This document shows positions 317-59,924 of a DNA stretch of 64,000 nt, one piece after another. Position 1 is the stretch's first letter; each line of letters opens with the position of its first letter. This stretch comes from Prosthecobacter sp. (lineage in GTDB: Bacteria > Verrucomicrobiota > Verrucomicrobiia > Verrucomicrobiales > Verrucomicrobiaceae), in assembly GCA_021733925.1 (NCBI GenBank), contig JAIPJY010000019.1, positions 1-64,000 on the forward strand, read 5' to 3'. A program made the position numbers and the translations under genes. Below the pieces are notes generated by a model that worked only from the letters and a program-made list of their open reading frames with translations, did not search any database and was not told the origin of the DNA.

Positions 317-336
317 CCGGCTAAAGCCGGTACTAC
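317..336 (-). repeat. REP-like palindrome, family A copy 1
   Basis: The palindrome CCGGCT-AA-AGCCGG (317-330) is followed by TACTAC, so on the minus strand a GTAG head precedes the hairpin. Copies of the same palindrome and tail occur at 40623 and 51934. The head-plus-hairpin layout matches REP elements of the RAYT-associated kind. No RAYT transposase is present in the window. Confidence 0.7.
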
Positions 337-382
337 ACAACGTGCGCTGGTTATATTCAGATCTGGGGTGATACGGGGCTTC

Positions 383-430
383 CAGAACGGGCTGCTGCGT
401 AGCCGCGAAGCGAACCCCGAACTACGTACT
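383..430 (-). repeat. REP-like element, family B, expanded loop
   Basis: The flanks AGAACGGGCT and CCCGAACTACGTACTC match the intact family B copy at 40727-40757. Between the arms, however, about 20 extra bases replace the two- to four-base loop. The outer arm and the GTAG head (minus strand) are kept. It lies about 50 bases from a family A copy in the same orientation, as at the other two A/B sites. Confidence 0.55.
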
Positions 431-660
431 CAGATTAGCCGGGAGTACAGAACGGCGCTGGGGGGAGCGGGAGCGGAGGGGTGAAGTCTGGGGATTTGCG
501 CATGGCGGTTCCCTCAGATGAATTCACTGGGAATGGTCATGGGGCGAGGCAGCGAGGAGGTGTCGTGGGCTCCGGCGGCGGCTTGAGGACAAGCCGCGCT
601 ACCTGCGCTGTCGCCACGCATGCTTTTCGAAAACCAGTTTTGGAAGCTCCGGGCTTTTTC

Positions 661-685
661 AGAACGAGCTGAAGCTCGGGAGTAC
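661..685 (-). repeat. REP-like hairpin just 3' of giant gene 1
   Basis: The hairpin CGAGCT-GA-AGCTCG (665-678) starts about 15 bases beyond the stop codon of the giant gene at 693. The flanking AGAAC and GGAGTAC resemble family B, but the stem is different. It may act as a transcription end or mRNA 3' stabiliser. No T-run follows it on the minus strand, so classical intrinsic termination is not supported. Confidence 0.45.
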
Positions 686-692
686 TTTTAGA

Positions 693-1740
693 TCACTTGC
701 GGCGGCGGCGGAGAAGGAGGCCGGAGAGGCCGAGGAGGAGAAGGAGGACGCGGGAGGGCTCGGGGACGACGACAATGACGCCGTAGGTGGTGAAGGCGCT
801 GGTGTCCCATGAGAGGCCGGAACCGAGAGAGAAGGCTGAGAGGTCCAAATTCGCCGTGGTGAAGCTGCCGGTTCCGGCGAGCGAGTCGAGCACTCCGACG
901 GTGCTCCAGTCGAGGAGCTTGAAGATGCTGCCGGAGGTCAGAGTGGCGCTGTTGTCGAGCACCTTGACGGTGCCGCCTGCGGTGGAACCGAGATTGAAGG
1001 TGCCGTTGGTGAGCCTGATGCTGTCGTAATCACCGGACTGGTCCCAGATGGTGGTGTAGGCGGTGCCAGCGGCACCGCCGTGGGTGTTCAAATAGGTGAG
1101 GGCGTCGCCTGAGAGGTCGAAGGCGGCATCGACTTGTGAACTGGAGGTGAGGCCGAGCTGAATCTGGCCGCCATTCTGGACGTCCACGGCTGTGCCGGCG
1201 GCGGTGAAGGTCAGGGTTTGATTGCTGGTGTCTGTGGCTCCCACGCCTGGAGCGAGGACGGCACCGCTGCTGATGACGGTGGCACCGGCGATGCTGGCGG
1301 AGCCGGAGAGTGTGGCTGTGGCACTGACGGAGACGGCGCCGGATCCGGCGAGAGCGCCGCTGGTGCCGTCTCCGACCTGCAGGGTGCCTGCGGCCACGGT
1401 GGTGGTGCCGGTGTAGGTGTTGGTCTGGTTGAGCACGAGGATGTTGGTGCCCAGTTTCTTGAGGCCCACGCTGTTTGCGCCGCTGTTGGTGTCGGAGATA
1501 TCGCCGTCATAGGTGAAGCTGCCGCCGGTGGCGTTGGAGGTGTCGAGTCCGATGAAGGAGCCGTCTGTGAAGCCGCCGGTGGGGGTGCCGAGGGACTTGA
1601 GGATGCCCACATCCGAAGCGGTGAATTCGCCGGTGCCGCCGACGTTGAAGGCGGCGGTGGCACCGGTGCTGACGACGAGGTTTGTGTCCGTCCAGCTTGC
1701 GGGGGTGTTGTTATAAAGGGCAGTCTCCAGGAGGAACTGC
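693..1740 (-). repeat. Paralogous C-terminal block, copy in giant gene 1
   Basis: The last ~345 codons, from the [14 protein letters not shown] segment through [13 protein letters not shown] and [13 protein letters not shown] to the PEP-CTERM tail, match 15211-16260 in the neighbouring gene at both protein and DNA level. Elsewhere the two proteins are much less alike. Selection for a common export or anchoring end, or gene conversion between the copies, could explain this. Confidence 0.75.
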
Positions 1741-4700
1741 AGGGTGCCGGAGGTGACCGTGGTGGTGCCGGTGTAGGAGTTCACGCCGCCCATGTAAAGG
1801 GTGCCGGAGGTGGTCTTGTTGAAGGCGGTGCCGCCATTGAGTTCAGCGAGATTTTTTAATGTGCCGGACTGAGCATTGAAGGCGATGGCATTGGTGGAAG
1901 CGCCGATGGATTTGCCGGTCATGTCCAGCAGACCGCCATCGAGAGTGATGCTGGCAATGCGGGTTCCGCCGCCCGTGCCGCTGAGGATGTCTCCCTGAAC
2001 GGTCAGAGTGCCGCCGGTGATGCTGATGGAGGCGTTTGCAGTGCCGGTCGTGGCATTGGCCATGGTGACGGCGGTGGTGCCGGTGGTGGCCAGAGTGACG
2101 TCACCCCCGGAGACATTGAGGGCGGTGGTGGTGGAACCGGTGGCGTTGGTGTTGCTGTTGCCCATGATGAGGGCCTGGCCGCTGCCGGAGCCGATGGTGA
2201 CGGTGCCGGCTGTGACATTGATGATGGAACTCACCGCCCCGGTGTTGGAGTTGCTGGCGAGGGTGGCGGCGGTGCCCGTGCCGGAGCCGATGGTGACGAT
2301 GCCGCCGCCGAGATTGATGACGTTGGTGCTGTTTCCAGCGGCGGTCTTTGAACCCATGGTGAGATTGCCGGTGGTCAAGGTGCCCGTGTCGAAGGCAAAG
2401 AGATTTTCCATGGGTCCGGTTCTCGTGGCCTGAGTGCCGATGGTCATCGCACCGAAGAGAAGATCCGCCGTATGTCCAGTGACATCGAAGGTGTTCCGAT
2501 TGCCCGCAGGCAGCCCCACTCCAGTGACGCCGTTGATGGAAGCCATGTTAAAAGCGGCAGCGGACACACCATCGGCAGCGCGGATGGTGACCGTGCCACT
2601 GGCATTGAGGAAGGTGATGGAACCCAAATCGCGTGCGCCCGTGCCAATATTAACCGCGTCAACGTTGAGGACATTGGTCGAGGTGCCGAGTTTGAGCGAG
2701 TTGATCTGTCCGGCGTTGCCATTGTAAGAGCCGCCGCCGCCTACGGTCAGCGCGCTGGCCGTAATGGTCGTGTTCTGTGCCAGGATCAGAGTGCCGAATC
2801 CGGAGCTGTTGGTTCCCGAGGTGCTGCCGATCTGAAGAATGCCGCTGGTGGTGTTCAGGGAGACATCCATGGTGGACAGCGCACTGAAGTCTGCGGTGGA
2901 GATGTTGGTGTTCGAGTTGCCGACAAGGAAGGTCACTCCCGTGCCAGTCGTGTTGATGACACTGAGGGCGCCCAAACCTGAGGCGGTGAACAGGGTCGTG
3001 GAAGAAGCCGCGCCACTGCCCAAAGTCACTGTACCGCCAACCGTGAGGGTCTTCCCAGCACCGATGATGAGTTCATTGGTTTCAACCGCCGTGTTCGTCT
3101 GCACGAGCAGGTTTCCGGCGAAGGTGGCGCTGGCGGTGGAGAGATCGAGCGTGCCTGCGGTGGCGATGGAATTGGCAGTGCCGAAGTTCAGCGCGCCTCC
3201 GCTGATTTGGTCTGCGGTGAAGCGCAGGATGCCGTCGTTGATGCTGGTGGCGCCAGAGTAAGAACTGGCGCCGCTGATGACCCAGGTGTTCGTGTCCAAC
3301 TTGATCAAGGTGAGGGCGCCAAGGCCGTATTCATTGAGGCCACCCAGAGTATTGGCCAGAAGCGGGTCGGACGATCCTCTCAGGGTGAGTGTTTTGGCAC
3401 CTGCGGTTTCGAAATGAACGCCGCCAAGGACGAGCGCGCCGGTGCCTGAAGAGTCCAAGGTGACGCCGCCGGTGGTGCCCTGCATGCCGATGGTGCGGTT
3501 ACTGCTGCTGCCGCTGCCGGTGTAGATGAGCGTGGTGGCCACGGTGGTAAGGCCCATGTGAATGACGCCATCCTGAGCCGTGGCTGCGCTGCCCAGCGCG
3601 CTGGCTCCGCCCCCGATGTTGGAGATGGAATTGAAGCTCACAGTACCGGCCTGGATTTCGACAGGACCGGAGAAGGTGTTCAGCCCGGAGAGAGTGAGAA
3701 TGTTGGTCTGCGTTTTCAGCAGGCCGCCAGAGCCTGCCAGCACGGTATTCACACTGATGTCACCGGTGTTGCCAAAGAAGAAGCCGGTGCTGGCGGCAAT
3801 GGTACCGGAGCCGAGAATGACCGGGCTTGCGCCAGTGGTGGTCACCAGTCCAGCGGTGAGGCTGAAGGTGCCAACGTCCAGCGTGGCGCCGGCGCCGATG
3901 ATGAGATCACCGCCGACGCCGGTGGCGTTGTTCGCGCCGATGGTCAGCGTGCCGCCGGAAACCGTGGTGGCGCCGATGTAAGTGGCGGCAGCATTCAGCG
4001 TCAGATTGCCAAGGCCGGATTTGGTCAAACCGCCCTGCCCTGAGCCCACGCTGCCTGCGAGTGAGAGGTCGATGCCATTGGTGTCAACCGTGGCACCGCC
4101 CTGCAGGAAGGTGATGGTGCGGGAGGAAAAATCATCGCCGCCATAGGTCGAGGACAGGCGCAGCGTGCCGCCGACGAAGACAAGGCCGCCGGTGCTGCCG
4201 CCGATGTTGGAGAGGCCGGAAATTTCGAGCGTACCTTCGTTGATGGTGGTCTTCATGGTGCCGCCGCCGGCGGTGTTGGTGCCGCTGAGGACGAGAGTGC
4301 CGCGGCCGGATTTGGTGATATCCGCTGTCGAACTCAGATTGGAGGAGATGGTGGCTGACAGCGCTTTGGTGGGAGTGCCGGCATCCGGATTCACGACCTG
4401 AAACACGTATTCGTTGGTGGCACCCACCGTGATGTCGGTGAAGCCGCCGAGGATGAGCCCATAGTCACCGACCGCCGCCGCAGGGTTGAGGGTAAACAAC
4501 ATCGCGCCGCTGGTCACGGCGAGGGTGCCGGACGCACCGGTCACGTTCCATGCTGCAGCGGCGACGCTGTTGTTGTTGAGGACGAGTGCATTGACCGTGG
4601 TGGCAGCAAGGCCGGTTAGATCAGCGGTAAGGGACTCACGGGCGTTGTCGGTCGCGGCTGCAGCAGAGAGAGTGTTGTATTCGGACGTAAAATCGAGGGG

Positions 4701-7700
4701 GCGGAAACCCGCGCCGCTGACATAGGTGACGAGAGAGTTGCCCATGTTCGTGGCGGCCAATGCATTGGAACCGATGTCTTCACCGACAGCCCAAGGCACG
4801 ATGCTGATGTTCTTGGTGCCTGCGAGACCGCCGCCACCGACGAGGTTGGTGGAGATAAAGGTGGCGTCGTTAGCGGTGACAATGCGGAACTGATTGCTGC
4901 GAACGTTGGTGGTGCCCAAGTTGGTGCCACGGATGTTGAGGGTGGCGTTGTTCAGCCGTGTGATGTCGCTGGCAATGATGTCTGAATCATCACTGGTAGT
5001 CGTGGCTTCCATGCCGACATAGCTGGCGCCGGAAGCGGCGGTCACCTCACCCACCGTCTCATCGAGAGTTCCATCCTGATCGGTGCGGATGGCGAGCCCG
5101 CGAACGATGGTCTGACCGCTGAAGTTGCCGTCTGCGGAGTTGAGAGTGATCGTCGTGGTGTCGAGAATGCGTGTGCCGGAGCGGGTGGTGCCGTTGTTGT
5201 CGATCAGGAGGGTTCCGCCCTTGTTCACGCGGATGATGGAGGCGTTGATCTGACCGATGCCGCTGAGCTGGAGAGTGCCTTCGGAGACGGTGAAGATGCC
5301 GGTAAACCCCGTGCTGATGTTGTTTAGATTGAGATTGCCCGAGCTCAGCTTGACGATTTTGCCGGTGCCGGTGAAGAAGCCGGCATAAGTGGTGCTGGAG
5401 ACTTCGTTGATGGTGAGGGTGTGGGTTCCGACGGCGACGGTGCCGTTGTCGGAATTGGTGGCGCGCTGGCCACCGGAGAGCCGGCCGATGGTCTCGTCAT
5501 CGAGCAGCTCCAAGGTGGTGTTTTGATAGGCATTGAGGGAGACGATGGAGTTGTCACCAATGGCATTGCCGCCGAAGACCTGGAGCGTGCCTTGCAGGAT
5601 TTCTGTTTCATCGGTGTAATAGTTGTTGCCGGTGAGGAGCAGGGTGCCCGTGCCGGACTTGGTCACAGCGTGGTTGATGCGGATGTCCGAACCGATGGTG
5701 AAGGTCTGGGCGCTGTCCTGGGTGATGATGAGTTCGACAACGCCCGAAGCGAGGGTGCCGCCCTGAATGCTGGGTGTACCGCCGACGCTGCTGGTGATGA
5801 GGATGCCGCCGCTGGCGATGCTGAGGACGCCGTCCGGAGCGATGACCAAATCTGAACCCGCGACGGCATTGAAGCGCAGGCTGTTGATGTTCAGGCCTTG
5901 GAGGGTGCCGGTGAAGCCGGTGGTGTCGTCGGTGACGTGATCGCCGACGGCCCAGGTGGAGACGTCGTTTTTAACGGTGGAGAGGAGGGCCACGATGTTG
6001 CCGCCGGCGAGGTTGGTGGCGTTGGTGGCGAACCAGATGCCGGTGCCATCATCCACCGTGGCGAAACCGCTGGTGCCGAGCAGGCCCTGAGCGCCGTTGA
6101 GCGTGGAGGTGGTGAAGCCGTTGGTGGCGCTTTGTGTGCCGGAAGGCAGGACGAAGCGGATGGTGCCATCCCGGTTGGCGGATGTGCGGGTGATGGCCCC
6201 CAGGTTCAGGACAATTTCCTGCCCGGCTCCTGGATTGAGCGTGATGGTGCTGGAGCTGCTATTGTCGGTCGATGAGCTGCCGTCCAGAGTGGTGCTGGCC
6301 ACGGTCTGGCTGGTGGCGGCAGAGGCATTGCCGGTGAGGACGAGATTGCCGCCGAGAATTTCGAGGGCGGAGGCGGCGCGGAGCTTGGTGGTGTTGCTGA
6401 CGGTGTAATCGAGGACGAGGGAGCCTTCATAAAGGATGCTGCTGCCGGTGGAGGCGAGGCCGCTGTTGTCCCCCCTGAGAGTGACGGTGCCGATGCCGAA
6501 TTTTTCTAACGCGGTTGAACCGGTGCTGCCGAGGCCGGCGTTGACGATGCCGTCGTAGAGATTGATGTCGCCGCCGGTCACTGTCACCGTGCCGGTGCCG
6601 TCGATCTGGCCGGTCAGGCTGGCAGCGCGCTGGCCGACATCGAGACGCGGGGTGGAGATGGTGAAAGTGTTGGTGTTGAGGGTGCCTGTCTGAGGTCCGC
6701 CCGAGTCCCCCAGAATGATGTATTCCAGACCGCCGCTGTTGCCGACGCCGTTCACATCATCCGCGTTGAGATTGATGACTGCTCCGGTGCGGGAGTAGAG
6801 GCCGCTGCTGGTTCCTGCAGGATTGGCGGCGGCGAGCACGCCGGTGGTGTTCAGGTTCAGCACGGTGCCGACTCCTGTCACGATGACATCATCGGCGATG
6901 GTGACCGTGGCGTCGCGGAGGGTCCAGATGCCGGAATTCACGTTGAGATCGGCCGCGGAGGTCCCGGTGGGCTGGGTGATGCCGCCGCTGATGATGCCTT
7001 CGCCAGTGCCAGTGAGTGTGAGGCTGTTGTCAACAGCCTGAGTGATGGCACCGGCATAGGTGATGATGGCACCTGAGGTGCCGCTGGCGTCCAAGGTGAA
7101 GCTGGCAGTGGAGGTGAGGGCCCTGTCGGTGGACTGACTGGTGTCGCCCATGAAACGGAGTGTGGAGGCGCCGATGATATTGATGGAGGAACCCATGCCG
7201 AGGCTGCTGGCGGCACCGCCGATGTTGGTGACGGTGTTGTATTCGAGAGTTCCTTCCTTGAGCGAAATGTCACCGCTGAAGGTATTGGCCCCGGTGAGGC
7301 GAACGGTCTGACTGGTGACAGCCCAAGCACCAAGTTCGTCATTGATGGCAAGGTCGTAACCCGAACCGCCATCTGAGATGACGGCGGAAATGATCAACTG
7401 GCGGGCGGAGGAGCCCTGGTAGCTGAGGCTGGCGTTGTTGCCGAGGACGATGGAGTTGCTGATGTTGATGATGCTGAAGTTGTCCGAGGCCTGGCTGATG
7501 CGGAGAGCGTTGTTCGCGTTGGCGGCGCTGCCGATGGTGATGATGCCGGTGAGATTCACCGTCATGTCGGCCACGGGCGTGCCCGAGGCGTCTGCGCTCA
7601 GTTCGAGAATACCGCCGACGGCATCCACGGTGATGTTCTGGCCGAGGTTGTAGGTGGTGCCGCCAGGGGTCACGAACTGAATCCGGCCCATGCTGGCGGT

Positions 7701-10700
7701 GATGTTTCCCGTGCCGAGGCCGGTGACGGTCTGGGTTTGAATGTTGCCGCGGATGAGATTGATGCCTCCGGACCAAGTGCTGTTGTCCGCCTGGAAGTAG
7801 AGGGTGCCGGTCAGCTGGTTGCCAGCGGAGAGGGTGGTGATGCTGTCGACGGTGAGGCTGCCAGCACCGCTCACGACGCCGCTGAGAACCACATTGCCTT
7901 GAGTGGCGGTGAGCACGGCTGAATTGGACCCGCGCATGTTGATGAAGGAGTCAGCGCTGACATTGACCGTGCCGGTGTAGTAATTGTTGCCGGCATTGCC
8001 GCCGACGGAAAGAGTGCCGCCGGACAGCGTCAGGTTATTGGCCACGCCAGTCGATGCCGCATTGACGGCTCCATTGTAGTAGAAGGCAGCGCCGCTGCCG
8101 ACGGTGACGGTGGCGAGGTTGTTGTTGATCTTGCTGCCCAAGGCGTTGGCATCGAGGATTTCCAAAGTGCCCGCGTTGATGGTGAAGTCCGAGGTGAGCG
8201 TGCTGTTGAAGGTCAGATCGGCAGCGGTGGTGAGAGTCACCCTGCCCGCGCCGCTCTTGATGACATCGGCCTCGCCAAACAACGGTCCAAGGGAGAGAAC
8301 GGAGCCTACGTCCGCCACACTCCAAGTCTGGTCCGAAACGATGCGGAGGGGAGCGCTGATGGTCACTGAGGCGGGCCCGCCGGCGGTGATCTTGATGCCA
8401 TCGGTGGCGACCTGGGGTGCGATGCTGAGGCGGTAGGAGGGATCCACGCCCGAACCGATGGTGACGGAGGAGGGTGTGTTTGCGCCGATGGTGGCGGCCT
8501 CGAAGGTGAGGGAGTTGATTTTGAAGCTTTGCTCCAAGGTGGTGGAGACTGCGGCATTGCTGGCGGCATCCCATTGGAAGATGACGTCCGTGCCCTGGCC
8601 CGGAGTGGAGAGCGCCACGATGGTGCCTGCTTTATCCTGCGACCAGTTGTTGACGTTCCCGTTCCAGGTGTTGTCCGTCAATCCGCGCCAGTAGGAAGTG
8701 CCGGTGATGAGGGTGCCGGTGGTGATGGAGATGAGGTTGTCCGACTGATTGATGATGATGGAACTGAAACCGCCCGGGGTGGTACCGAGGATCCAGTCGC
8801 TGGCTCCCAGCGGCCCGGTGGTGAGACCGCCGTCTGCGGAGGAGATGAGGTTGTAGGTCTGCAATGCGTTCAGGCCTGTGTCGCTGAGATTGAGCGTGAT
8901 CTGATTGCCGGCGAAGAGATTCAAGGCGCCGCCTGAGAGCAAACCGAGCAGGTCGGTGGCGGCATTGTCCCCCGTGGTGCTGCCGTCACCCACATTGAAC
9001 CGGAGGGTGGTCATGGTGCCGCCGCCGGAGCCGAGAGTGAGGAGGGTCAACTGGTTGAGCTGATCCCCTGCGCCATTGAGGAGGTTGAGGGTGGAACCGC
9101 TGTCAACGACGACACTTTTGACCGCCGCAGGTGCGGTGATGCCAGCGGTGAGAGCGAGCGTGGAGCCGTTGGTGACACTGAGACCGGAGGTGCCATCGAG
9201 AGAGGAGCCGATGGTGAATGTGCCGCCGTTCACATTGGTCGTGCCGGTGTAGGTGAGAGCGACTCCGCTGGAAATGGTTGCATCGGCAGCACCGGTCTTG
9301 GTGACGGAGAGGGCGCCGCCGCCGCTGTTCTGGATGGCGTAGGTGCCGATACCGCCGCCGTAACTGACTGCTGAGTCGGCAGAACCGAAGGTCAGGGAGG
9401 CTGCGGAGGAGGAGGTGTTGTCAATGACCGCAGTGCCGTCAGTTGTGGCGGTGAGACCATTGATGGTCTGGGAGGTGCCGTTGAGATCGAGCGTGGCGGT
9501 GTCGCCATTGGCGAGTTCCGGGCTTAGAAGGACGCTGCCAAATCCAGCGCCGGACGCGATGGCATTGTTCGCCCCCATGCGCAGGGTGCCTCGGTCGATA
9601 TCGGTGCTGGCGCTGTTGTTGTTGTAGTTCGAGCTGCTGCCGTTGAGCTGCAGGACGCCGTCACCAGTCTTGGTGAGCACGATGCCGAAGGCGGTGGAGG
9701 TGGTGAAATCGCCGTCGATGATCGTCATGCCCGAGCCGTCAACGGTAAAAATGCGGTTGGCGGTCAGGGCGTTGGCGGTGGCGCCGGCAAAGCTCAGCGT
9801 CTTGCCGCTGACGACGTTGTTGTTCAGGCCGCTGTTGTTAGCGGAGTTGAGCAACTGGAAGACACCGGTGGTCAGGCTGTAGTCACCGGTGAAGGCGGTG
9901 ACCGTGTTGTTGACCAGACGTACGGGGTTCGCGATGGTGCGGTCTGCACCGTAGGCGAACAGGGTGCCGTTGCTCCAGTCCAGATTGCCGGTGCCGAGGG
10001 CGTGGTCATCTCCAATGCCAAGGGAGCCAGCGGTGAAGGTGGTGGTGCCGGTGTAGTCGTTCGCGCTGTTGGTGAGGATCCACATGGCGGAGCTGTCCAC
10101 CGTGATGCCGAGGGTGCCGCCGTTGTTGGAGAGCTGGCTGGTGATCATGTTGCCGGAGGCATTGACGCCACGCAGGAAGAGAGTTTTGTTGCCACCCATC
10201 ATGTCATTGGCGACGTTGGTGAGAATCAGAGCGCCGACGCCGTCGGCATGGATTTGAGTGCTGCCGGTGGTGCTGTTGAGGCGGATCTTGCGGTCGCTGG
10301 TTTCACCGAGGCCGACGTATTCAAGGATCGCGGCGCCCGTGCCGCCGTTGCCGAGGGTGATGGCGTTGGAGTCCAGATTGGCATTCACTTCGGTGCCGAC
10401 ACTGGTGGTGCCCGTGCCTGTGCTGAGTCCGAGTGAATGGACGACGAGGGTGCCTTGGTTGACATTGGTTTCACCGTCGTAGGTGTTGTCACCGCTGAGA
10501 ATGAGGATGCCGGTGCCGAGTTTGCGGATGCCTGTGCCGGCATCTCCGGAAATGACGCCGCTGATGGTTGCAAAATCCGCACCGATGAGGGTGTTGTCAT
10601 CCACGCGAATCGCACGGAGGGAGCCGCCACTAATCTGGCCGTCAGTGTACGAGCCGACGACCGTGCTGGAGTTGGCGGTGTTGGCACTGATGGAGAAGGT

Positions 10701-13700
10701 GGTCGCGCTGTTGATGCTGACGATGTAAGCCCCTGAAGGGATATTGGTGCCGGTGACAGACTGGCCTACGGCCAGCCCGGCCGTTGAAGCAACGGTGACC
10801 GTGGAACTGTTCTGAGCGAGGGTGTAACTCAAGCCGGGCCCCAAAGCAGTGCCGGCCGCGGTGCCGAGCGAAAACCCGCTGGCAAGCATCACATCCGCTT
10901 TGGCAACGGAAGTCTGCCCGACGGCAGCGCCAAAGATAAGACCATCCCGGTTGTTGAGGAAATCTGTGGTGACGCCCCAAGTCGGTGTGGAGCCCCAGTC
11001 AACGATGAGCTGGGAGCCGCCGGCCGCAAATCCACCCCTGAAGGCGGCTGTATTGGCCGCAGGCGCCGCGAATCTCAACTGGTCCGCCCCACTGCCAATG
11101 GTCCGTGAAAGAGATCCCGTGGAGGCAAAGATGCCGCCATTGAACACCAGATTGGAAGCGGTGGGGAGCGAGATGCCGTTCTGCGCGTAGAGGACACCGC
11201 CGCGCAGTTCGGTAACGCCGGAGTACCCGTTGGTGGCCTCCAAATACCAGACACCCGCATCCGCTTTGTAAACCGAGGTCACCGCAGCACCGTTGTCGTT
11301 GATGATGGGGAAAAAGCGGTTGTCGCCATTCGATGCCCCGCCAAGAACGAGCCCCTGGGCATTGCCGGTGGCGGCAGAGCCGAAAGCCAGAGCCCCGGTG
11401 TTGGTAAAGCTGAGAGTCGCCCCGTTCACGCCATTGGCCTGGATGCGTGCGCCACCGTTGGCAGCACCGTTAAAGGTGAAGAGATGGTCGGTGAAATCAT
11501 TGGTGGTGCCGGCGAAACTGAGACCGCCGTAGGCCTGGGTGGTGCTGGTGCCGGTGAAGACGAGATTTCCCGCGTCACTGGTGGCCGCGCCGAAGCCGCT
11601 GGCGAAACCGCCATCTGCCACATTGTTCACGGTCACGATGCCGGTCGAGGCGATGGTGGTGACGCCGGTGTAGTTGCTCAAGCCCAGCCAGCTTTGCGCA
11701 CCGGTGCCCGTTTTGAGAATGTTGATGACGCCATTGGTTTCGGTGAATGAACCGAGGGAGGTTCCGGTGCCGTTGCTCCCGCCGACATTGAAGGTGACTG
11801 CGATGGAACTGGAATTCGTCAGTGTGCCATTGTTGTTCCAGGAATTGGTGCTGCCGCTAGGTGTGACACCGTTGAGGTCAATCGTGCCCCCCTGACGCAC
11901 CGTGACGCTGACATTGCTTGCCGCCAGACGTCCGACGCCGCTGAGCTGCACGGTGCCATCATTGATGCTGACCGTGCCGGTCTGCGCATTCGCTGCAGCG
12001 AGGATCAGAGTGCCTTCGCCGACCTTGGTGAAGCCACCTGTCGTGGTGCTGGTCATCGGCGCATTGAGCGTCAGAGTGTTCGCGCCGCCATCCACGTTGA
12101 TGACCAGCGCTCCGCTGCCGCCGGTGCTGACACCTGTGCCTGAGATGGAGCCAGAGCCACCGGTCAGGATGATGCCGCCGGAAGCGTTTGAGGTGCCAGC
12201 GGTGCGGATGGTGAGCAGGCCGGTCATGGTGAGATCCTGGGCGCCGTTGATCTTCAGAGAGTCAATGGTGACGGCTGCATTGCTGAAGCTGCCGGTGATT
12301 TCATTGCTTTTGGCCGAGGTGAGTGCCGTGGCACTGGTCGCGAAATCCGCATCGGTGGTGTAATCGGGTGCACGCAAGGCCAGACCGGCACCGGGGACGA
12401 AGGCGAAGTCCGAACCGTTGTAATAAAGTCCGGCATTGGCGATGTTGTTCACGATGCTGGTGGTGGCAAACGAAACGGTGTTGCTGCTGGTGGGTGCCTC
12501 GATGTTCACGGTGCCGCCGCCGCCCACTGTGCCGAGAGAGGCAAAGACCAGCGATGCGGTGCCACCGCTGCCGGGAGTGAGTTTGATGGTGCCTGAACCG
12601 AGGGTGGGGGTGAGCACACCGAGAGTCTCGACGTTGCTGGCACTGGCCTGACCGACAAACTCCAAGGTGCCGCCGGCGTATTGGTTGACCTGGTTGAAGA
12701 CAATCGCCGAGGAGTCGGACACGATCGTCGAAACAGCCGCGTTGGCCTTGAGTTTCAAGATGCCGTTGGTGATGGTGGTGGTGCCGGTGTAAATGTTCTC
12801 GCCTGTGAGAACCCAGGTGCCAGTGTCCACTTTGGCGAGATTGACGAGTCCGCCTGCCGCGTTGTTGGGGATGACGCCATTGATGGTGTTCTCAGCAGTA
12901 TTTGTGCCGCCAAGGGTCAATGTCTTGGCATTGGTCGATGCGCCCCCGGTGGCTGTAAAGTCCGCATTGAAAATCAGGCCGGGGCTGGTGCCGGTCTGAT
13001 TGGCGAGGATGGTCGCACCGCCGGTGGTGCCGGCGAGATTGATGACCTTGCTGGTCGTCAAATTGGCTTGGAGGGCATTGTTGCCGACGACGCTCAGGAT
13101 CGCTGAGGTGCTGCTGGTGCCGATGTTGATGGTGCCAGTGTTGTTGTTGATGGCACGCCAGTCGTTGACGGCCAGCGTGCCACCGCTCACGCTTACGGTG
13201 CCGTTCAGGGTCGATGCCGTGCCGGTGATGGTGAGTGTTCCCGTGCCGGACTTGGTCAGGTTGTGTGCAAAACCGGCGGAGGTGCCAATGACGTTGCCGT
13301 TGATCAGGGTGTTGCCATTGCCGGCGATGGTTATGGTTCTGGTGCCCGTGTTTTCCGAATTGCTCCAGAAATTTCCAGTGAAGGTGAGCAGAGCCCCCCC
13401 TTGGAGATTGTTAGTCATGGTGGTATCCCCGTTGCCACCGTTGACGGGTGCGGTGGTGAAACTCATGCCGTAGCCATTGCGGCTGTTGAACGTCAGCGTG
13501 ATGCCGTCCTCATACGACAGATTGCCGAAAGCGACGGTCTGATCCTTGACCGAACTGCTCGGTGTATGGTCCGCATAAATGGTGCTGGAAGCACGAAAAT
13601 AGACGTTGGCGTTTGAACCGTTCGAGACTTTGACATCAGGAGCATCCATGAGCACGGCGAGGATACCGCCATTCAAGTCCAGCACAGCGCTGGTGGTGCC

Positions 13701-14810: not shown

Positions 14811-15210
14811 GCACGTAATGAAATAGTTGGGTTGGGGCATTCAATGCACGGCAGGTTGTGCCGCACATATGATCAGACAGGTTGGGGTAGACTGATCAGT
14901 TTGAATGAACTGCATTCTTTGGAACAAGCCCAAACTGAGCCTTAGGCCGCCGATCGGCCTATGTCTTATGCTTCAAGATTTTTATCTTTACTAAATGCTA
15001 GCCCTTTTCTTTATTTTTACCCACTGCCGCATCATTTATCGCTGCTTTTTAATGCGATGATGGCAATCAACCAGTCCCTGATCGCGCCATTAATTCGAAT
15101 ATAATCTATTACCAGCGCCCTTAGGGCAGGTGGCTATTACTTCAGCTATACCTGCACTTATGTTCAATGCATCTCTGGCAGCAATCGCATAGGCACTGAG
15201 ACGAAGCAGA
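14811..15210. promoter_or_regulatory. Upstream region of giant gene 1
   Basis: This 400-base gap separates the two giant genes and should hold the promoter of the first (transcribed leftward). It is clearly more AT-rich than its surroundings. It contains a hairpin TAGGCCG/CGGCCTA at 14943-14961, two TGATCAG sites at 14870-14876 and 14893-14899, and the decamer CTAAATGCTA at 14991-15000. That decamer recurs upstream of the second giant gene at 31254. No Shine-Dalgarno sequence precedes either possible start codon. No gene is seen. Confidence 0.5.
14943..14961. other. Palindromic hairpin in leader of giant gene 1
   Basis: Perfect 7-bp arms TAGGCCG and CGGCCTA around a five-base loop lie about 130 bases upstream of the start of giant gene 1. 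It could be an operator or an mRNA leader hairpin. The second giant gene has no equivalent that I could find. Confidence 0.35.
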
Positions 15211-16260
15211 TCAGAGAGATGAGCGGCGACGGCGAACGAACAGTCCGAGAAGGCCAAGCATCAGGAAGAGCGCCCGTGAGGGCTCAGGAACAACGACAAT
15301 GAGCCCGTAGGTGGTGAAAGCAGACGTGTCCCAAGACAAACCGGAGGCAGAGAGGCTGGGAAGACTGAAATCGGTGCTGGCATTGAAGCTGCCGCTGTAG
15401 CTGGCCCAGTCGATGAGGTTGAACACATCTCCCAACTGAGGCCCCTGTGTGGTGTAGCCGTTGTCGAGCAGGGTGATGGTTCCCGCTCCGGTACCCAGCA
15501 CCAATGATCCCGCGCCCAGATTGATGAAATCATGGCTGTCAGGAGTGGCGCTGTTCCAAGCGGCCAGACTTGAGGAGCCAATTCCTTGAAGATAGGTCAA
15601 GGCATTGGACGCAGTGCCGCCCAGGCCATCGTGATAGAGCCCATCGTAGTAAACGCCTGAAGCCTGAGTGGTGGGGGCGGTGATTCCAAGCTCGATCCTG
15701 GCACCATCATCCACCGTCAGAGTGCTGGTGACTGCGGTGAAGGTGAGCGTTTGATTGCTGGTGTCCGTATTGCCGGTGCCCGGAGCGAGAACGGTGCCGC
15801 TGTTGAGAGTCGTGCTGCCAGCGATGCTGCCGGAGCCCGAGAGCTTGCTGCCAGCATTGCTGACGGTCACACTGCCTGTACCGGTGCCTGATCCAGTGGT
15901 GTTGTCGACCTCCAACGTGCCACCGTAAACGGTGGTGCCACCGGTGTAGGTGCTGGCCTGATCAAGGGCGAGAGTGCCGGTTCCCAGCTTGGCAAGACCG
16001 ACCGAATTGGAGCCTGAATTGGTGTCTGCGATGACATTGGAATAGGTGAACCGGCCGCCGGTGGCATTGGATGTGTCCAGTCCGATTTTCGAGCCGTCCT
16101 CAAAGCCGCCTGAGGCGGTGCCGAGAGGCTGGATGGTGGCGATGTCAGATGCGGTGAACTCTCCAGTACCACCGACGTTGAAGGCGGCGGTGGCACCGCT
16201 GATGACAACCAGATTCGTGTCGGTCCAGCTGGCAGCTGTGTTGTTGTAGAAGGATGTCTG
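15211..16260 (-). repeat. Paralogous C-terminal block, copy in giant gene 2
   Basis: Counterpart of 693-1740. The two copies share [44 protein letters not shown] and [13 protein letters not shown] in the same order, ending in VPEPS. Long stretches are identical at DNA level, for example the GCCGACGTTGAAGGCGGCGG-type segment. Confidence 0.75.
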
Positions 16261-19200
16261 TTTGGCGAACGCAAGTGTGCCGGCGCTGACCGTCGTCACA
16301 CCGGAGTAGGTGTTGGTGCCGCTGAGAATCTGCGTGCCCACGCCTGCCTTGGTCACTGTGCCGCCGCCACTGATGGCACCACCATAGGAGAAGCTGCCGA
16401 AACGGTTGTACACCAAGGCTGAGTTGTTGATGATGCTCAGGCTGTTGCTGATCGTGCCCTCGTTGCCGCTGGTGCCATCTCCCAGCTGCAATGTGCCAGC
16501 GCTGATGGTGGTGGCACCGGAGTAAGTGTTGACGCCAGTGAGGGTCATGATGCCGCTGCCCTGCTTGGTCAATCCCCCGGTGGTGCTGCTGATGACGCCA
16601 CCGAAGGTGGTGGAGCTGTTGTCACTGCCCGCATTGAGGGCCTTTGCGCCCAAGGTCACACTGGCTCCGGCACCGCCGGCGAGAGAGGCGATGGTGGCGG
16701 ATGTGGGGGTGACGCCGCTGATGTCAAAGATGCCGCCTGCGCCAGTCACCGTGATTGCCGTCAAAGTCGCGGTGCCAGCAGTGCTGAGCGCGAGGGTGCC
16801 GGTGCCGATGGTTGTCGTGCCGGAGTAAGTGTTGACGCCTGTCAGGGTCAGCGCACCGCCATTGATGGCGAGGTTTACTTTCTGTGTGCCGCTGCCAAGA
16901 GCGTTCTGAATGATGCCCGCATAGGAGGATGTGCCGGTGAGGGTGAGGGTGGAGTCGGACGTGGTGGAACTGTTGCCGAGTGTGGCGGTACTGGCACCCT
17001 TGACGATGCCGACCAAGGATTGATTGAAGCCTGCGAGATCGAAGGACCCCGCTGCCGTCTGTGCAATGGTCAGCGTGGCGGTGGTGGCAAGGCCGTTATT
17101 GACACCGATGGCGGTGGTATCCTGGTGGTTGATGAAGCTGGTGTAACCCGTTCCGCCACCCGAAAAAATCACGGTGCCGATGCGAGCGGTCACGGCCACC
17201 GATGAAGTGATGACGCCAGTCACGTTCAAAATCGTTGCGGCCGTGGGTGCAGCGAAGTGACCGCCAGCCGCTGGATTGCTGCTGATGGTGATCGGGCCGG
17301 AAAGGGTCGTGGTTCCAGCCGTGGTTCCAGCCTCAATGAGGCCTCTGCCGCTGGTGCCGTTGTTGGCCCCGATGATGATGGCATTGGAGAAGTTGAGACC
17401 GGTGCCTACGACGAGACGAACACTGGTGGAATTGAGGGTGATGCTGCCGCTGCCCAGTGCACTGGCGTTGTCGATTTGAATGATGCCATTGCTGAGAGTT
17501 GTGCCGCCGGTGAAGGTGCTGGCGGCGTTCAGGATGAGAGTTCCTGTGCCGGTTTTTGCGAGTGCCAGCACTGCGCTGATGCCCGTGTTTTGAAGGACGC
17601 CGCTGAAGGTGCTGGAGGCGTTGTTGCCGCCCACGGTCAGCGTGCTTGTCGTGCTGGCAGCGAGATTGTCCACCGTGCCAGTGCCACTGAGGCCGTTCAC
17701 GGTGTCGCTGAAGCCATTCATGTTCAGGAGGCCGTTGGTGGTCACGAAGTTGCCTTTGCCGGTGCCGTCTGGGAGGACATTGCTGGAGCCGAGCTGGATG
17801 GTGCCGCCGCCGACTGCGAAGGTCGTGTCACCGGCGTAGGCGTTGGTGCCGTCCAGGATGAGCGTGCCGCTGGTGGATTTGACCAAGGCTGCGCCGGCAT
17901 TGAAGTCGGCGAGGTTTTTGAGGGTGCCCTGCTGGAGATTGAAGTTGGTGACGAGATTGCCGGAGGCTCCGATGGTGCCAGCGGTCATGTCGAGGATGCC
18001 GCCATTGAGCGTGAGGGTGGAGGTTTCAGTTCCGAGGCCATTGGTGGCGGCGATGTTGCCGTCCACCGTCAGGATGCCGCCGTTGATGATGATGGAGTTG
18101 GTCACGGCATTGAGGGCATTGACGGTGGTGTTGCCCATGGTGAGGTTGCCCGTGATGCGCAGGGTGCCGCTGTTGAGATTGATGGTGGCGGTGCCTGTGG
18201 TGGGCATGGTGGCGGCGATGGTGGCATTGTTGACCGCCATGTTCAGGGTGCCGATGGTCGTGGTGGAACCATTGATGTTCATGATGGCCGATGTGCCGCC
18301 GGTGGCGGCGGAGCCGCTGAGCGTGCTGACGCCCATGTTCAAGGTGGTGATGTTCACCGCACCTGTTCCTGCGATGTTGAGCGTGGCCTGCGTGCCACTG
18401 GAGGAGGTGGCACCAGCGACACTGAGAGCTCCCATGCTCAAAGTCGTCACTGCGACGGTGCCCTGGCCGCTGATGTCCAGGGTGGAAATCGCATTCCCCG
18501 AGGATGTTGCGGTGGAGGTGGAATTGACGCTCATGTTCACGGTCGTGAATGTCGCCGTGGTTCCAGAGGTGGTGCCGCCGATGGTCAGGTTGCCAGTCAC
18601 GCTGGCGGTCGTCAGGCTGGAACCAGCACGGCTGGCGAGAGTCACTGTTGTGGCAGCCAGCGTGCCGGTGTCGAAGGTGAATGTTCCCGTGGTGGCGGCT
18701 GTAGTGGACGAGGCCGTGGGAGCACGCGAAGCGATGATGAGGGTGCTGGCAAGGATGTCCACGCTGTTCCCAGCAAAGAGTGCGGATGCCGTGAGGACGG
18801 AGTTGGTGCTGCCAGTGGTGTTGATCAGATTGATCGCGGTGGCTCCCGTTCCGTTGGCAGCCCGAATTTTCAAGGTGCCCGAACCCACAGCGAAATTGAC
18901 GACCCCATTGCTGCGAACGGCGGTCGTGCTGGTGGATACGCCGCCGATGTTGAGGATGTCCGCATTGAGGGTCGTGAGGCCGGTTCCCAGAGTGAGGGTG
19001 GCAGTGCCAGCGTGAGCGGTGGAAGCCCCGACATCCACCACCGAAGCGGTGATGGTGCTGGTGGGGGCGAGCAAAATTTTAACGGTATCCGCGACACTGC
19101 CAGTGTCCGAACTGCCGATGCGGAAGGCACCGCCGCCGAGATTGGCGGTGAAAGTGCCGAGACCTGTCATGTCCAGCGTGGTGGTGCTGGCGACGGTGCT

Positions 19201-35118: not shown

Positions 35119-35147
35119 CCGCACATGGAATGTGCGGACCACTTCAC
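35119..35147 (-). repeat. REP-like palindrome, family D copy 1
   Basis: CCGCACAT-GGA-ATGTGCGG (35119-35137) is followed by ACCACTTCACG, so on the minus strand a GTGG head precedes an 8-bp stem. The second copy at 35737 is identical except for two bases in the tail. The two copies are in direct orientation on either side of the EVE-domain gene. This copy also lies between convergent genes and could help end their transcripts. Confidence 0.72.
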
Positions 35148-35736: not shown

Positions 35737-35766
35737 CCGCACATGGAATGTGCGGACCACTTCGCG
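35737..35766 (-). repeat. REP-like palindrome, family D copy 2
   Basis: CCGCACAT-GGA-ATGTGCGG (35737-35755) plus ACCACTTCGCG matches the copy at 35119 in sequence and orientation. It lies in the 289-base gap upstream of the EVE gene, which otherwise shows no gene. Confidence 0.72.
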
Positions 35767-37179: not shown

Positions 37180-37207
37180 CATCTCGCGGAGCGAGATGGC
37201 TACTTTA
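37180..37207 (-). repeat. REP-like palindrome, family C copy 1
   Basis: CATCTCGC-GGA-GCGAGATG (37180-37198) plus GCTACTTTA gives a GTAG head and an 8-bp stem on the minus strand. A copy at 54774 is identical through this whole segment, and upstream GCGCTGRGCT is also shared. Its last three bases are the stop codon of the small lipoprotein at 37205, so hairpin and gene end are physically joined. Confidence 0.75.
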
Positions 37208-40622: not shown

Positions 40623-40642
40623 CCGGCTGAAGCCGGTACTAC
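40623..40642 (-). repeat. REP-like palindrome, family A copy 2
   Basis: CCGGCT-GA-AGCCGG (40623-40636) is followed by TACTAC and then AATACGT. It matches the copies at 317 and 51934 in stem and tail, with a GTAG head on the minus strand. Confidence 0.72.
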
Positions 40643-40726: not shown

Positions 40727-40757
40727 AGAACGGGCTAAAGCCCGAACTACGTACTCT
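40727..40757 (-). repeat. REP-like palindrome, family B copy 2
   Basis: CGGGCT-AA-AGCCCG (40731-40744) plus AACTACGTAC, preceded by CCAGAA. It is the cleanest family B copy. Its flanks match the expanded-loop copy near 383 on both sides, including CTC.GATT downstream. Confidence 0.72.
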
Positions 40758-50748: not shown

Positions 50749-50749
50749 A

Positions 50750-50767: not shown

Positions 50768-50795
50768 CTCACACCCATGAACGCGAGCTAGCGTG

Positions 50796-51773: not shown

Positions 51774-51853
51774 GGAGTGGTGGAGTGCTGCATCCTTCTT
51801 CGCCAAAGCTGGGAAGGACAGGGTGATGGAGAATTGGAGGGAGGGGAAGACGC

Positions 51854-51881
51854 CGGACGGGCTGAAGCCCGAACTACGTAC
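51854..51881 (-). repeat. REP-like palindrome, family B copy 3
   Basis: CGGGCT-GA-AGCCCG (51858-51871) is followed by AACTACGTAC, as in the copy at 40731. It sits about 85 bases upstream of the DUF1080 start and 62 bases from a family A copy in the same orientation. Confidence 0.7.
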
Positions 51882-51933
51882 GGGGAGGTTTGGTGACTTG
51901 AAGATGCGGTGTGGGTTTGCGGGGCTTTCCGGA

Positions 51934-51953
51934 CCGGCTAAAGCCGGGACTAC
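51934..51953 (-). repeat. REP-like palindrome, family A copy 3
   Basis: CCGGCT-AA-AGCCGG (51934-51947) is followed by GACTACAATAC. It lies about 25 bases beyond the stop codon of the hydrolase gene at 51979 (minus strand), so it may act as a 3' mRNA hairpin for it. Confidence 0.7.
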
Positions 51954-51978
51954 AATACTAAGAGGCTGTGGGTGGGGA

Positions 51979-52992: not shown

Positions 52993-53038
52993 AAAAATAA
53001 AAACGTGAATGCGATTTTGCGGCATCTGATGGTTTACA

Positions 53039-53659: not shown

Positions 53660-53767
53660 GGACACGGTGGAGTATTTTCTGAGCTCTGAGCACCTAGACA
53701 ATATACAGGAAGCCGCGCTCATTGAAGATGTCTATTTAGATTCCTATCTCGATTCTCTGAAATTCCC

Positions 53768-54601: not shown

Positions 54602-54773
54602 GCGGGCGGTGCATGCTGCGGTGGAGGATGCGCATGGTCAAGCTGAGTCGTGCTTATCCAAACGACCCAGGCGGTGTTTGCATGCCTTGGGCGTGAGTTT
54701 GGGTGAAGCAGGGAGCGGTGAAAGCGGGGTGCGGACTGCGGGAAGGCATGGGGCATGACGTGAGCGCTGGGCT

Positions 54774-54801
54774 CATCTCGCGGAGCGAGATGGCTACTTT
54801 A
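54774..54801 (-). repeat. REP-like palindrome, family C copy 2
   Basis: CATCTCGC-GGA-GCGAGATG (54774-54792) plus GCTACTTTA is identical to the copy at 37180, and upstream GCGCTGGGCT matches GCGCTGAGCT there. It lies in the divergent pheA/pbpC promoter gap, only about 30 bases before the pbpC start. Confidence 0.75.
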
Positions 54802-54830
54802 TTTCAGCGCGACCTCGCGTTGATTGGCGC

Positions 54831-57086: not shown

Positions 57087-57410
57087 GTTCGCGTGTCCTG
57101 CGTGCAGCGCTGGCATACCTACGGCATGCGACCTTGAGCGGGTGGCAGGGTGAGTGAGCGTGGTCCAGGGGTGGCGCTCGTGCCTCGCTTACCCCTGGCT
57201 ACCGGCTGTGATCCCTCCGGGATCGTGACAAAATCCGGATGCGCATGACGTTTTTCGAAATGGTGTCGGCAAAAGCGGAGCGACTGCTGCTTGCGGAGTA
57301 CTGCCTTCTTCACCAAGGCTACGAAGGCCAGGACGGAATAAATTCCGCGCTCCTTGGACGCTGCGCTCTTCACCGCGCGCCATGCAGCATGCACGTGCGC
57401 ATCAGGTTTA
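57087..57410. other. Intergenic gap between convergent pbpC and CehA/McbA genes
   Basis: No supported gene in these 324 bases. The left half holds the composite palindrome listed at 57165. The right half contains imperfect inverted segments (for example AAGGCTACGAAGGCC and GGACGGAATAAATTCCG) that look like decayed repeats. The gap separates two 3' ends, so these hairpins may serve as transcript ends. Confidence 0.5.
57165..57224 (-). repeat. Composite REP-like palindrome
   Basis: Arms CCAGGGGT (57165-57172) and ACCCCTGG (57191-57198) are followed by CTACC, so a GTAG head precedes the stem on the minus strand. A second short palindrome, GATCCC-TCC-GGGATC, follows at 57210-57224. This belongs to the same general class as families A-D but has a longer loop and is the only copy in the window. 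Confidence 0.55.
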
Positions 57411-59798
57411 TTATTCTGCCAGCCGCTCGCGATAGACCTGACGTGCGTGCTCATAGGCGGCGACGGCATCTGAATGCTCCTTGGGATCGATGAGTGCTTC
57501 TTTCTGAGACCAGCATTGATCGACGCTTTTGAGGCACCATTCGAGGCTGCGCTTTTCGCGGATGGGTTTGCCGGCGACGATGACGAAGATGGGGTTTGTG
57601 TGCGAGCTGGCGCGGATGCGCAGGGCGACCCAGCAGCTCTTGGTGACGGGCACGTCGAAGCTCATCTCGCGGGTGACGCCATCGGCGGTGATGTTTTTCT
57701 GGGCGACGGAGACGCCGTTCACAATGACTTCGACAGGGACATTGTGTGAGGCACCGCGGCGGGCGCGTTCGAGATCCCAGAAGGGTTTGTGATCCACGGG
57801 CGCGGATTGAATTTCGGGGTGCAGCTTGTCATCGAGCCGAGCGGCGACTTTGGCGGAGAGTCTCAGCGTTCCTGGCGTCTGAAGCCTGATCTCGCTATCT
57901 TTGGTGCCCACTTCAGTTGGCTCCATCACGATTTCTCTCGGGCCTCGATCTGCGTTGTGGGGTGTTGCCCCAGGTCCCTCAGGAATGATTTTCTGTCTGG
58001 CTTTGAACTCCATGAGGTGACTCTTGCCATCGCTGACGTAGGCGCGACCGGCGCGGATGCCTTCGCACCAGGCATCGTAGCTGAGGCGGCCGTCGAGCTT
58101 CACGTAGGCGCGGCCGAGGCCGACGCGCTCGCCGTAGATGCAGGGGAAGTCGGTCTCGCCGCTGATGCGGGTGCGGAAGCCGGCATTGAGGGTGTGATAC
58201 CAGATGTTCAGCTCCCAGGTGTGCGGGGTGTCCACCATGGAGAGGAAATCGACAGCGGGCACCGGTTTACCATCCGGCCCTTCCACGTTGTGCGTGACAT
58301 CGACGATGTATTCATTGGCACCGATGCCGTTGAAGGGCGGGATGATGTAGTTCGGCAGTTCGTCGGTGGCGCTGGGGATGCCAAGTTTGTAGTTCTGCTT
58401 TCGTGCGGGATCGTTCTCCGCGAGTGGTTGCAGGCCCCAGCCGCTGTGGGCGGGGCCGCAGAGGGCACCCTGTTTTTTGGCCCACTTGAGGGTATTCAGG
58501 CAAAGGGTGGGCCAGTGGGCGGTGCTGTCGCCGCCGGGGTACATCTGCTCCTTGAGCTTGAGCAGGCAGAGGTGGCCGCTTTTGTGGCTGCCGAAGCCGC
58601 TGACTTCGACATCGTAGCGAAGGAGAAAGGGGAACTTGGATTCCTTGTCCTCGGTACCGGTGAAGAACTGTTTTTGGTAATCGAAGCAGGGGCCCCAGGT
58701 GAGGTTGGCGCCGATTTTTAAATCTTCGCCCATGCAATGCCGAGCCATGTCGGGCGCATGCACGCCCATGGTCGGCACAGAGTAGTGGGCACAGCCGGCG
58801 GCGTGGATGTGGTGATCGCCGCTCCACCAGCCGAGTTTGCTGGGATCGATCCAGCGCTGCACTTGAAATTTCAGCGGTGTGTTCTTGCCTGCGATCTTCA
58901 GTTTGCGCTGCTCCGGTATGGATTCTGGGCCGCGACGGAAGGTGATGTCATAGTCGCCATCGGGGAGTTTTAGTATTTCGCCATCGCCGCGATAGATCTG
59001 CGGGTGGAAGAAGAAGTCTGGCGCGATGCGCTTGATCTGACTCGGGTAGATGCGTCCGGCGTGGTCCTTGATGAGCAATTCGGCGATGCAGGGCTTGCCG
59101 TTTTCATCAAGGATGTTCAGCGCCACGTCGCGTGCGGGCTGGCAGTCAAAGAGGACGCTGGTTTCGGCGCGGAAACCGAGATCCTGAGTGCCCTGGCCGG
59201 TGTCGAAACTGAAGACGGCTTCGCGTTTGCCGGCTTCGCTGGCGTAGAGCTGGATGATGCGATATTCGACGCCGAGCCCGCTGAGTGTGGGCTGCTGTGG
59301 CGGTGCTTCGTGCATCTGCAGTTCGAGCCAGCGTGCGGAGAGCGGCGGAAGCCCGGGATCGCGGGGCTGAGCATGCGGAGCCACGGGTGGGGAGCCTTTC
59401 ACATAGACTTCTTTCCCCTGTGGACTGCTGGCGGCGAGCTTGGCGGTGACGCCGGCTTCATTCTCCACACGCACGAGGTACTGCCGCCAGCCAGATTCAT
59501 CGAGCACGGCTTTGGCCGCGCCGCGCTCGACTTTCACGCGCTGTTCGGGAGTGATGGTGACGAGGAAGAGAGCGTGCGAATCGAGCACGGTTTGCGCCTT
59601 GGCCACGGAAGCTGCGTCGTGGGCCTTGATGCAAGCACGCAGAGTGGTGAGTTCAGCTGTGGAGAAGGGCGAGCCGAGAAAGGCTGTCGCGTCGATAAGT
59701 CGCTGGGTGGCGGTGAAGAAGGGCTGGGGTTCGAGGGGGGCGGCGTGGCTGAGATGAACAAAGGCAAAGCACAGGCAGAGCAGGAGCGACGTTTTCAT
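57411..59798 (-). CDS. Secreted CehA/McbA-type metallohydrolase
   Basis: A 795-residue exported protein (signal peptide MKTSLLLCLCFAFVHLSHA). The central domain begins at GWWSGDHHIHAAGC near residue 315, the first metal motif of the PHP-like CehA/McbA family, and includes VYVKLDGRL, WCEGIRAGRAYVSDGKSHLM and further His/Asp sites. The N-terminal 300 residues are beta-rich (YRIIQLYASEAGKREAVFSF, KPCIAELLIKDHAGRIYPSQ) and may form carbohydrate-binding-like or carboxypeptidase-regulatory-like modules. The C-terminus has additional beta strands. Known relatives hydrolyse carbamate or phosphoester bonds, but the natural role in Verrucomicrobiota is unknown. A GGAG lies 5-8 bases before the ATG, one of the few Shine-Dalgarno-like sites here. 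Confidence 0.85.
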   Translation of the reverse strand: MKTSLLLCLCFAFVHLSHAAPLEPQPFFTATQRLIDATAFLGSPFSTAELTTLRACIKAHDAASVAKAQTVLDSHALFLVTITPEQRVKVERGAAKAVLDESGWRQYLVRVENEAGVTAKLAASSPQGKEVYVKGSPPVAPHAQPRDPGLPPLSARWLELQMHEAPPQQPTLSGLGVEYRIIQLYASEAGKREAVFSFDTGQGTQDLGFRAETSVLFDCQPARDVALNILDENGKPCIAELLIKDHAGRIYPSQIKRIAPDFFFHPQIYRGDGEILKLPDGDYDITFRRGPESIPEQRKLKIAGKNTPLKFQVQRWIDPSKLGWWSGDHHIHAAGCAHYSVPTMGVHAPDMARHCMGEDLKIGANLTWGPCFDYQKQFFTGTEDKESKFPFLLRYDVEVSGFGSHKSGHLCLLKLKEQMYPGGDSTAHWPTLCLNTLKWAKKQGALCGPAHSGWGLQPLAENDPARKQNYKLGIPSATDELPNYIIPPFNGIGANEYIVDVTHNVEGPDGKPVPAVDFLSMVDTPHTWELNIWYHTLNAGFRTRISGETDFPCIYGERVGLGRAYVKLDGRLSYDAWCEGIRAGRAYVSDGKSHLMEFKARQKIIPEGPGATPHNADRGPREIVMEPTEVGTKDSEIRLQTPGTLRLSAKVAARLDDKLHPEIQSAPVDHKPFWDLERARRGASHNVPVEVIVNGVSVAQKNITADGVTREMSFDVPVTKSCWVALRIRASSHTNPIFVIVAGKPIREKRSLEWCLKSVDQCWSQKEALIDPKEHSDAVAAYEHARQVYRERLAE

Positions 59799-59901
59799 GG
59801 GGACTCCAACGTTCGCAGAGGTGGAGGGCTTCCAAATGCGAGGGGGGAGTTTGGAATAATTCTAGCCCTGGAGTTTTGCGCAGATGCGGGGACGTTCGAA
59901 A

Positions 59902-59924
59902 GCGGCGCTGAAGCGCCGCACTCC
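59902..59924 (-). repeat. REP-like palindrome, family E
   Basis: GCGGCGCT-GA-AGCGCCGC (59902-59919) followed by ACTCC. The 8-bp stem and GA loop match the style of families A and B. The minus-strand head is GGAG rather than GTAG. It lies about 25 bases beyond the stop of the DMT permease gene (minus strand). Confidence 0.6.

Follow-up and report, generated by a model that had tools for sequence, protein, structure and literature searches.

REP elements of several families in a Prosthecobacter genome carry their heads on the C-rich strand

We analysed a window of 64 kb, the first part of the 116-kb contig JAIPJY010000019.1 (C13) in the genome of Prosthecobacter sp. (GCA_021733925.1, here G000; 7.3 Mb, 127 contigs), whose intergenic DNA carries short palindromes that all point the same way. 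These are repetitive extragenic palindromic (REP) elements of at least eight families, the kind spread by REP-associated tyrosine transposases (RAYT or TnpA-REP, HUH single-strand transposases), and their one-way orientation is a genome-wide pattern, not a local oddity: heads lie on the C-rich strand in 139 of 155 copies from eight families, and in 121 of 124 where local GC skew is strong. An initial annotation of the window had proposed that orientation is tied to replication; equal use of the two strands, the outcome that would speak against this, was looked for and not found, and the interpretation is supported overall, with replication read from skew and not from a mapped origin. That hairpins of many families nearly all point one way with respect to local strand composition suggests that DNA replication dictates the spread or survival of REPs.

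Results and Discussion

Palindrome families

A genome-wide pattern search of G000, allowing up to three mismatches, returned 43 matches to family A, 35 to B (eight of which carry the A stem), 44 to C, 14 to D, 7 to E and 3 to a composite (family F). The patterns thus recur up to 44 times, against no match to the reversed patterns used as control, an excess over chance; in the relative G023 one reversed match was found. For strand tests we sampled 80 stretches, mostly chosen around copies, together with the window (1.54 Mb, later 1.87 Mb). Among 770 intergenic hairpins in the 1.54 Mb, 229 placements have GTAG next to the stem and 11 have CTAC. The predicted REP layout, a head followed by a short stem-loop, is borne out. 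Families A, B, C and D fit a strict definition (a short GC-rich stem, its loop 2-5 nt long, and a GT[AG]G head 0-2 nt away), from which E, the GTAC type, F and a long-loop form of B depart because of GGAG or GTAC heads or long loops.

Of the 146 pattern matches, 17 fall inside called genes (a simple Markov method predicted 1028) and the rest are extragenic. The in-gene matches, excluded from the gene-context test only, include ones on contigs C33, C47, C51, C81 and C97; those on C33 and C47 are common to the congener G001, on the same strand. A and B often lie head-to-tail as part of a longer dispersed unit, which measures roughly 240 nt in an alignment of 28 copies and has conserved flanks on both sides of the B+A pair. 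Most copies lack the second, inverted REP of the REPIN/BIME layout: such a partner accompanies 6 of 27 solitary A copies, none of 27 composite A copies, 11 of 22 copies of C with a CAT arm and 1 of 14 D copies.

As far as the relevant parts of those papers describe them, published GTAG-tagged REPs and their transposases (Nunvar 2010, PMC2817692; Di Nocera 2013, PMC3733652; Quentin 2018, PMC6006769) are alike in having a GTAG or GTGG head by a short GC-rich hairpin, several families per genome, mostly intergenic copies and hairpin-flanked RAYT genes, whereas the head-to-tail B+A doublets and the strand-locked copies set G000 apart. Within the Verrucomicrobia, O. terrae is described as highly enriched in GTAG-tagged REPs (PMC3733652).

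Head strand and GC skew

We took local GC skew from up to 20 kb around each copy, treated copies at |skew|>0.05 as a strong-skew subset, and counted families by regular expressions in the 1.87 Mb. The eight-family total comprises A (51/55 heads on the C-rich strand), B (27/28), long-loop B (8/9), D (14/14), the CAT arm of C (18/22), the GTAC type (10/13), E (4/5) and F (7/9). Under strong skew, A (45/45), B (26/26), D (14/14) and the C CAT arm (12/12) obey without exception, and the three exceptions are single copies of F (C50:50406), E (C89:131695) and the GTAC type (C98:162510). The 146 pattern matches gave 40/43 for A, 33/35 for B, 14/14 for D, 6/7 for E, 2/3 for the composite and 28/44 for C. 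Five further types stand outside the total: the CTC arm of C and the L015 and L017 types, taken up below, A2 (8/10, and 8/8 under strong skew) and the type found at position 578 of the window (7/7 and 4/4).

A copies lie on the C-rich strand both within the B+A unit (27/28, 25/25 under strong skew) and outside it (24/27 and 20/20). With one vote per contig domain for A, B, long-loop B, D and C CAT, 42 of 42 domains agree under strong skew and 48 of 54 overall. Pairs of A, B or D copies on the same contig share a strand in 106 of 110 cases, doublets not collapsed, against a shuffle mean of 54, and head strand flips together with the sign of the skew inside C7, C19, C39, C80 and C103. The sign changes within C19, C39, C66 and C80 are more numerous than a single origin and a single terminus would produce, possibly owing to inversions or assembly joins.

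Related genomes and turnover

In G001, where 20 stretches held 28 of the genome's 36 copies, 27 of the 28 heads lie on the C-rich strand. For three other relatives we scored distinct copies within a few 3-kb loci, and small samples from G002 (6/7, from 41 genome copies) and G012 (6/7, from 44) agree. G008 gave 3/8 (from 27), with all eight copies at |skew|<0.05, and is therefore no real negative control; G015 copies were scored by strand only. The lock to the C-rich strand holds across families, independently of transcription, in G000 and clearly in G001. Many copies do not share their position with G001. The REP/BIME elements of Escherichia coli K-12 are likewise GTAG-headed hairpins but have no strand bias (23/44 in eight 50-kb stretches, 400 kb). 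G008, G015 and G028 have many tight inverted pairs, which also occur in G001, G002 and G012.

Family D was found in 48 stretches of a public collection, mostly contigs labelled Verrucomicrobia, Verrucomicrobiaceae or Prosthecobacter, with some from Planctomycetota and a few others, and 38 of 53 heads there are on the C-rich strand. Its ATTCCAT type, on contigs labelled Verrucomicrobia or Prosthecobacter, gave 22/26 overall and 18/19 under strong skew.

For turnover, stretches of G001 and G000 formed 23 pairs with more than 1 kb aligned, and we examined ten of these. The A copy and its partner found at C93:9769 in G000 are unmatched in the G001 alignment, and D at C108:23879 lacks an exact equivalent at its place; both matching intergenic regions of G001 contain D-like hairpins (CGCACAGTCCTCTGTGCG, with GTGG heads), whose heads lie on the side where G000's own D copies have theirs. 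The D-like hairpins at L298 and L280 of G001, with a CGCACAG stem, escape the D pattern, and G000 has REPs in those intergenic regions. By pattern alone, a copy on C62 is specific to G000 and those at L279 and L289 to G001. Copies are present or absent at matching sites, as expected of mobile elements.

RAYT genes and their hairpins

G000 has 21 matches to PF01797, and headed hairpins adjoin several RAYT-like genes, as the initial annotation had expected. L028 is flanked by C-type REPs and L015 by GTAGGGCAAGCC hairpins, while L019, a PF01797 match, lies among GTAGGGCGGCTTG hairpins of the 578 type. By eye, the flanks of L016 hold GTACTC hairpins with a GCTTYAGC loop and a TCTGG tail like those of A and B, L017 is flanked by GTAGGATGGGCG repeats and L018 by GGAG-headed hairpins; F stems flank L011, a gene of IS200 size. 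No hairpin of the E type was found flanking the RAYT-like genes of G000. L016 is identical at 105 of 205 positions to a RAYT of G015 whose REPs, GTAGTTTGGGCTTTAGCCCAA, resemble B. In the four proteins scanned, the REP-associated tyrosine transposase family of NCBIfam, NF047646, was the sole family matched, at 79.6 (L016), 62.5 (L028), 59.2 (L018) and 65.3 bits (L020), all below the cut-off of 80.

The annotation had further suggested one enzyme class serving several families. A single class stands, and a single enzyme does not: there are several RAYT-like genes, each with its own headed hairpins, and therefore several enzymes of one class. Head letters may covary with the enzyme, judged by eye. 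RAYT L327 of G015 has GTAA-headed flanking hairpins, and its relatives have GTAG and GTAC heads. L020-L027 and L029, like many G012 matches, are multi-copy proteins of about 390 aa with a partial Y1 transposase match; no common hairpin was seen in the flanks of the G000 genes, and L029 has one GTAG hairpin.

Explanations for the strand lock

The explanation we consider best, and moderately probable, is that at least eight REP families with RAYT-type spread have their heads locked to the C-rich strand through replication-coupled mobilisation. GC skew would mark replication direction, with the G-rich strand leading; the GTAG-bearing strand would then be the leading-strand template, with the sequence of the nascent lagging strand, and RAYT mobilisation of REPs would be coupled to the replication fork. 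As a second contribution, inverted pairs may lose, by strand-specific decay, the arm that has its GTAG on the lagging-strand template. Mechanisms of REP dissemination have been called poorly understood (PMC8266576). IS200/IS605 enzymes (IS608, ISDra2), Y1 HUH single-strand enzymes like RAYTs, act on the lagging-strand template in both excision and insertion, and orientation consequently follows replication direction (PMC5371812). RAYTs recognise single-stranded REP DNA and cleave at a GTAG motif (PMC3733652). By this analogy a fork-coupled origin of the head bias is likely. The B+A composite lacks a second arm and yet has 27 of 28 A copies on the C-rich strand, which favours insertion in one orientation, while the remnants of inverted partners favour some removal.

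Two precedents for replication-linked orientation emerge from the parts of the open literature considered here: IS200/IS605 (PMC5371812) and a few tandem arrays in Pseudomonas fluorescens SBW25 (PMC3116915), where GI-GIII arrays on opposite sides of the chromosome differ in direction, the five near 2 Mbp being forward and the six near 4 Mbp reverse. The SBW25 arrays are few, and the relevant text describes no general strand lock. We found no report of a general replication-strand bias of REPs in the portions covered of this literature, which includes PMC6006769, PMC3116915, PMC3733652, PMC8266576, PMC2817692, PMC5371812 and PMC11708052. A near-absolute lock common to unrelated families would tie REPs to the replication fork, and it lets the question of which DNA strand is used by the RAYT enzyme be put to a clear-cut test by counting.

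The G-rich strand of a bacterial chromosome is usually the leading strand. In G000, G001, G012 and G027 rpoB lies on the G-rich strand, which suggests that the C-rich strand of the heads is not the lagging-strand template. If the G-rich strand is leading, GTAG stands on the leading-strand template, opposite to the IS200/IS605 rule, in which the transposed strand is on the lagging-strand template (PMC5371812). We put forward tentatively, as somewhat less probable than not, that RAYT elements of this genus reverse that rule: the GTAG strand would either be attached to the nascent lagging strand or be eliminated where it lies on the template of that strand, and well over 100 REPs of unrelated families would form a chromosome-wide mark of fork direction.

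Several observations weigh against replication-coupled mobilisation by RAYTs, or against our assignment of strands. Family C as a whole is weak by pattern, and its CTC arm is evenly divided (10/20, and 5/10 under strong skew); the small L015 and L017 types gave 4/5 and 2/5; and the ACTCCGT type of D on public contigs (16/27, and 8/15 under strong skew) does not clearly obey the rule. None of the 21 PF01797 matches in G000 has an A, B or D hairpin within 1.5 kb, and what links A and B to the RAYT L016 is solely a similar loop and tail. We infer the leading/lagging call from the general rule and the flanks of rpoB, and rpoB lies on the C-rich strand in G008 and G028 and near zero skew in G015. 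Genes are even between the strands of G000 (404:423). As strand calibrators the dnaA contig (just 12 kb), 13 tRNA genes (4 G-rich, 9 C-rich) and genes of IS200 size (G-rich to C-rich 1:3 in G000 and 10:15 in relatives) were uninformative.

The strongest alternative, which we regard as possible though unlikely, is strand-selective loss: insertion either way, followed by RAYT cleavage or deletion of copies or arms whose GTAG strand is on the exposed lagging-strand template. All six solitary A copies with a decayed or intact inverted partner (score >=11) have it downstream and none upstream, and partners occur at the C CAT and D copies counted above. An ancestral inverted pair at C33 has left the same arm in G000 and G001, and one at weakly skewed C125 has left a different arm in each. 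C copies with a partner tend to weaker skew (median 0.03 versus 0.12, Mann-Whitney p 0.057). Against loss, the B+A composite has no inverted arm to lose and is nevertheless strand-locked, and E. coli retains heads on both strands.

Selection on orientation, with the elements recruited as polar signals marking replichore direction, would suit the near-perfect polarity in strongly skewed domains and the mostly intergenic placement. We think it improbable: unrelated stems obey the same rule, several copies are absent from the corresponding place in G001, and families such as D and E are low in copy number.

Transcription has very little left to explain. Were gene orientation to set head direction, GC skew would merely follow the genes, and coding strands in G000 are indeed slightly C-rich (-0.038), so that skew and gene strand are not fully independent; for the same reason an apparent gene excess on the C-rich strand (394:320) arose, which is gone with the balanced estimate given above. 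Of 56 intergenic clusters of A, B and D, however, 53 are on the C-rich strand, whether antisense to both neighbours (8/8), sense (14/15), between convergent (14/16) or divergent genes (9/9), or in unknown context (8/8). Skew taken from third codon positions (GC3) of plus genes (46/53), of minus genes (47/54) or from intergenic bases (52/56) gives the same picture, and sites where plus-gene and minus-gene GC3 skew agree reach 39/40. We rejected gene direction as the cause on the antisense-flanked and GC3-agreeing sites. The motif CCCAGCG, often upstream of heads, was rejected as a target setting orientation, since its 2:1 strand skew (91:47 intergenic) is too weak to explain the head bias.

Least credible of all is inheritance of one orientation per region through segmental duplication, to which the long A and B composite and one unit tandemly duplicated at C115/L292 lend some colour, as the rule also holds for C, D, E and F, which are independent families, and contig domains, taken as units, agree throughout under strong skew.

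Palindromes of the window

All twelve palindromes that the initial annotation listed are present where it placed them, each a GTAG, GTGG or GGAG head with a stem-loop and each on the minus strand (Table 1). A de novo scan found 12 intergenic headed hairpins, all minus and none plus: ten coincide with listed sites, and those at 578 and 665 are new. The scan does not include long-loop B and the composite, whose loops exceed its limit. Inside called genes the scan found nine headed hairpins (8 plus, 1 minus), none of which matches a family pattern, whereas all 13 family-pattern matches in the window are minus. An Rfam search of the window returned nothing at the gathering threshold.

Table 1. REP elements in the 64-kb window
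Element	Position	Strand	Remarks
Family A	317..336	minus	GTAGTACCGGCTTTAGCCGG; part of B+A head-to-tail doublet
Family B, long-loop form	383..425	minus	GTAGTTCGGGGTTCGC...AGCAGCCCG; same B+A doublet as A at 317
REP GTAGCGCGGCTTGTCCTCAAGCCGC	578..602	minus	resembles hairpins around PF01797 match L019; absent from initial annotation
REP, GTAC head (GTACTCCCGAGCTTCAGCTCG)	665..685	minus	resembles hairpins flanking RAYT L016; absent from initial annotation
Family D, GTGG head	35119..35142	minus	
Family D, GTGG head	35737..35760	minus	
Family C (CAT arm), solitary	37180..37203	minus	
Family A	40623..40642	minus	
Family B	40731..40750	minus	start 40727 in initial annotation
Family B	51858..51877	minus	start 51854 in initial annotation
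Family A	51934..51953	minus	
Family C (CAT arm), solitary	54774..54797	minus	
Family F (composite of initial annotation)	57165..57202	minus	stem CCAGGGGT...ACCCCTGG, long loop
Family E, GGAG head	59902..59924	minus	

The window also holds two giant open reading frames on the minus strand, at 693-14840 (4715 aa) and 15211-31155 (5314 aa); both are packed with degenerate repeats of about 66 nt and, judged by eye, look like repeat-rich autotransporter or adhesin genes.

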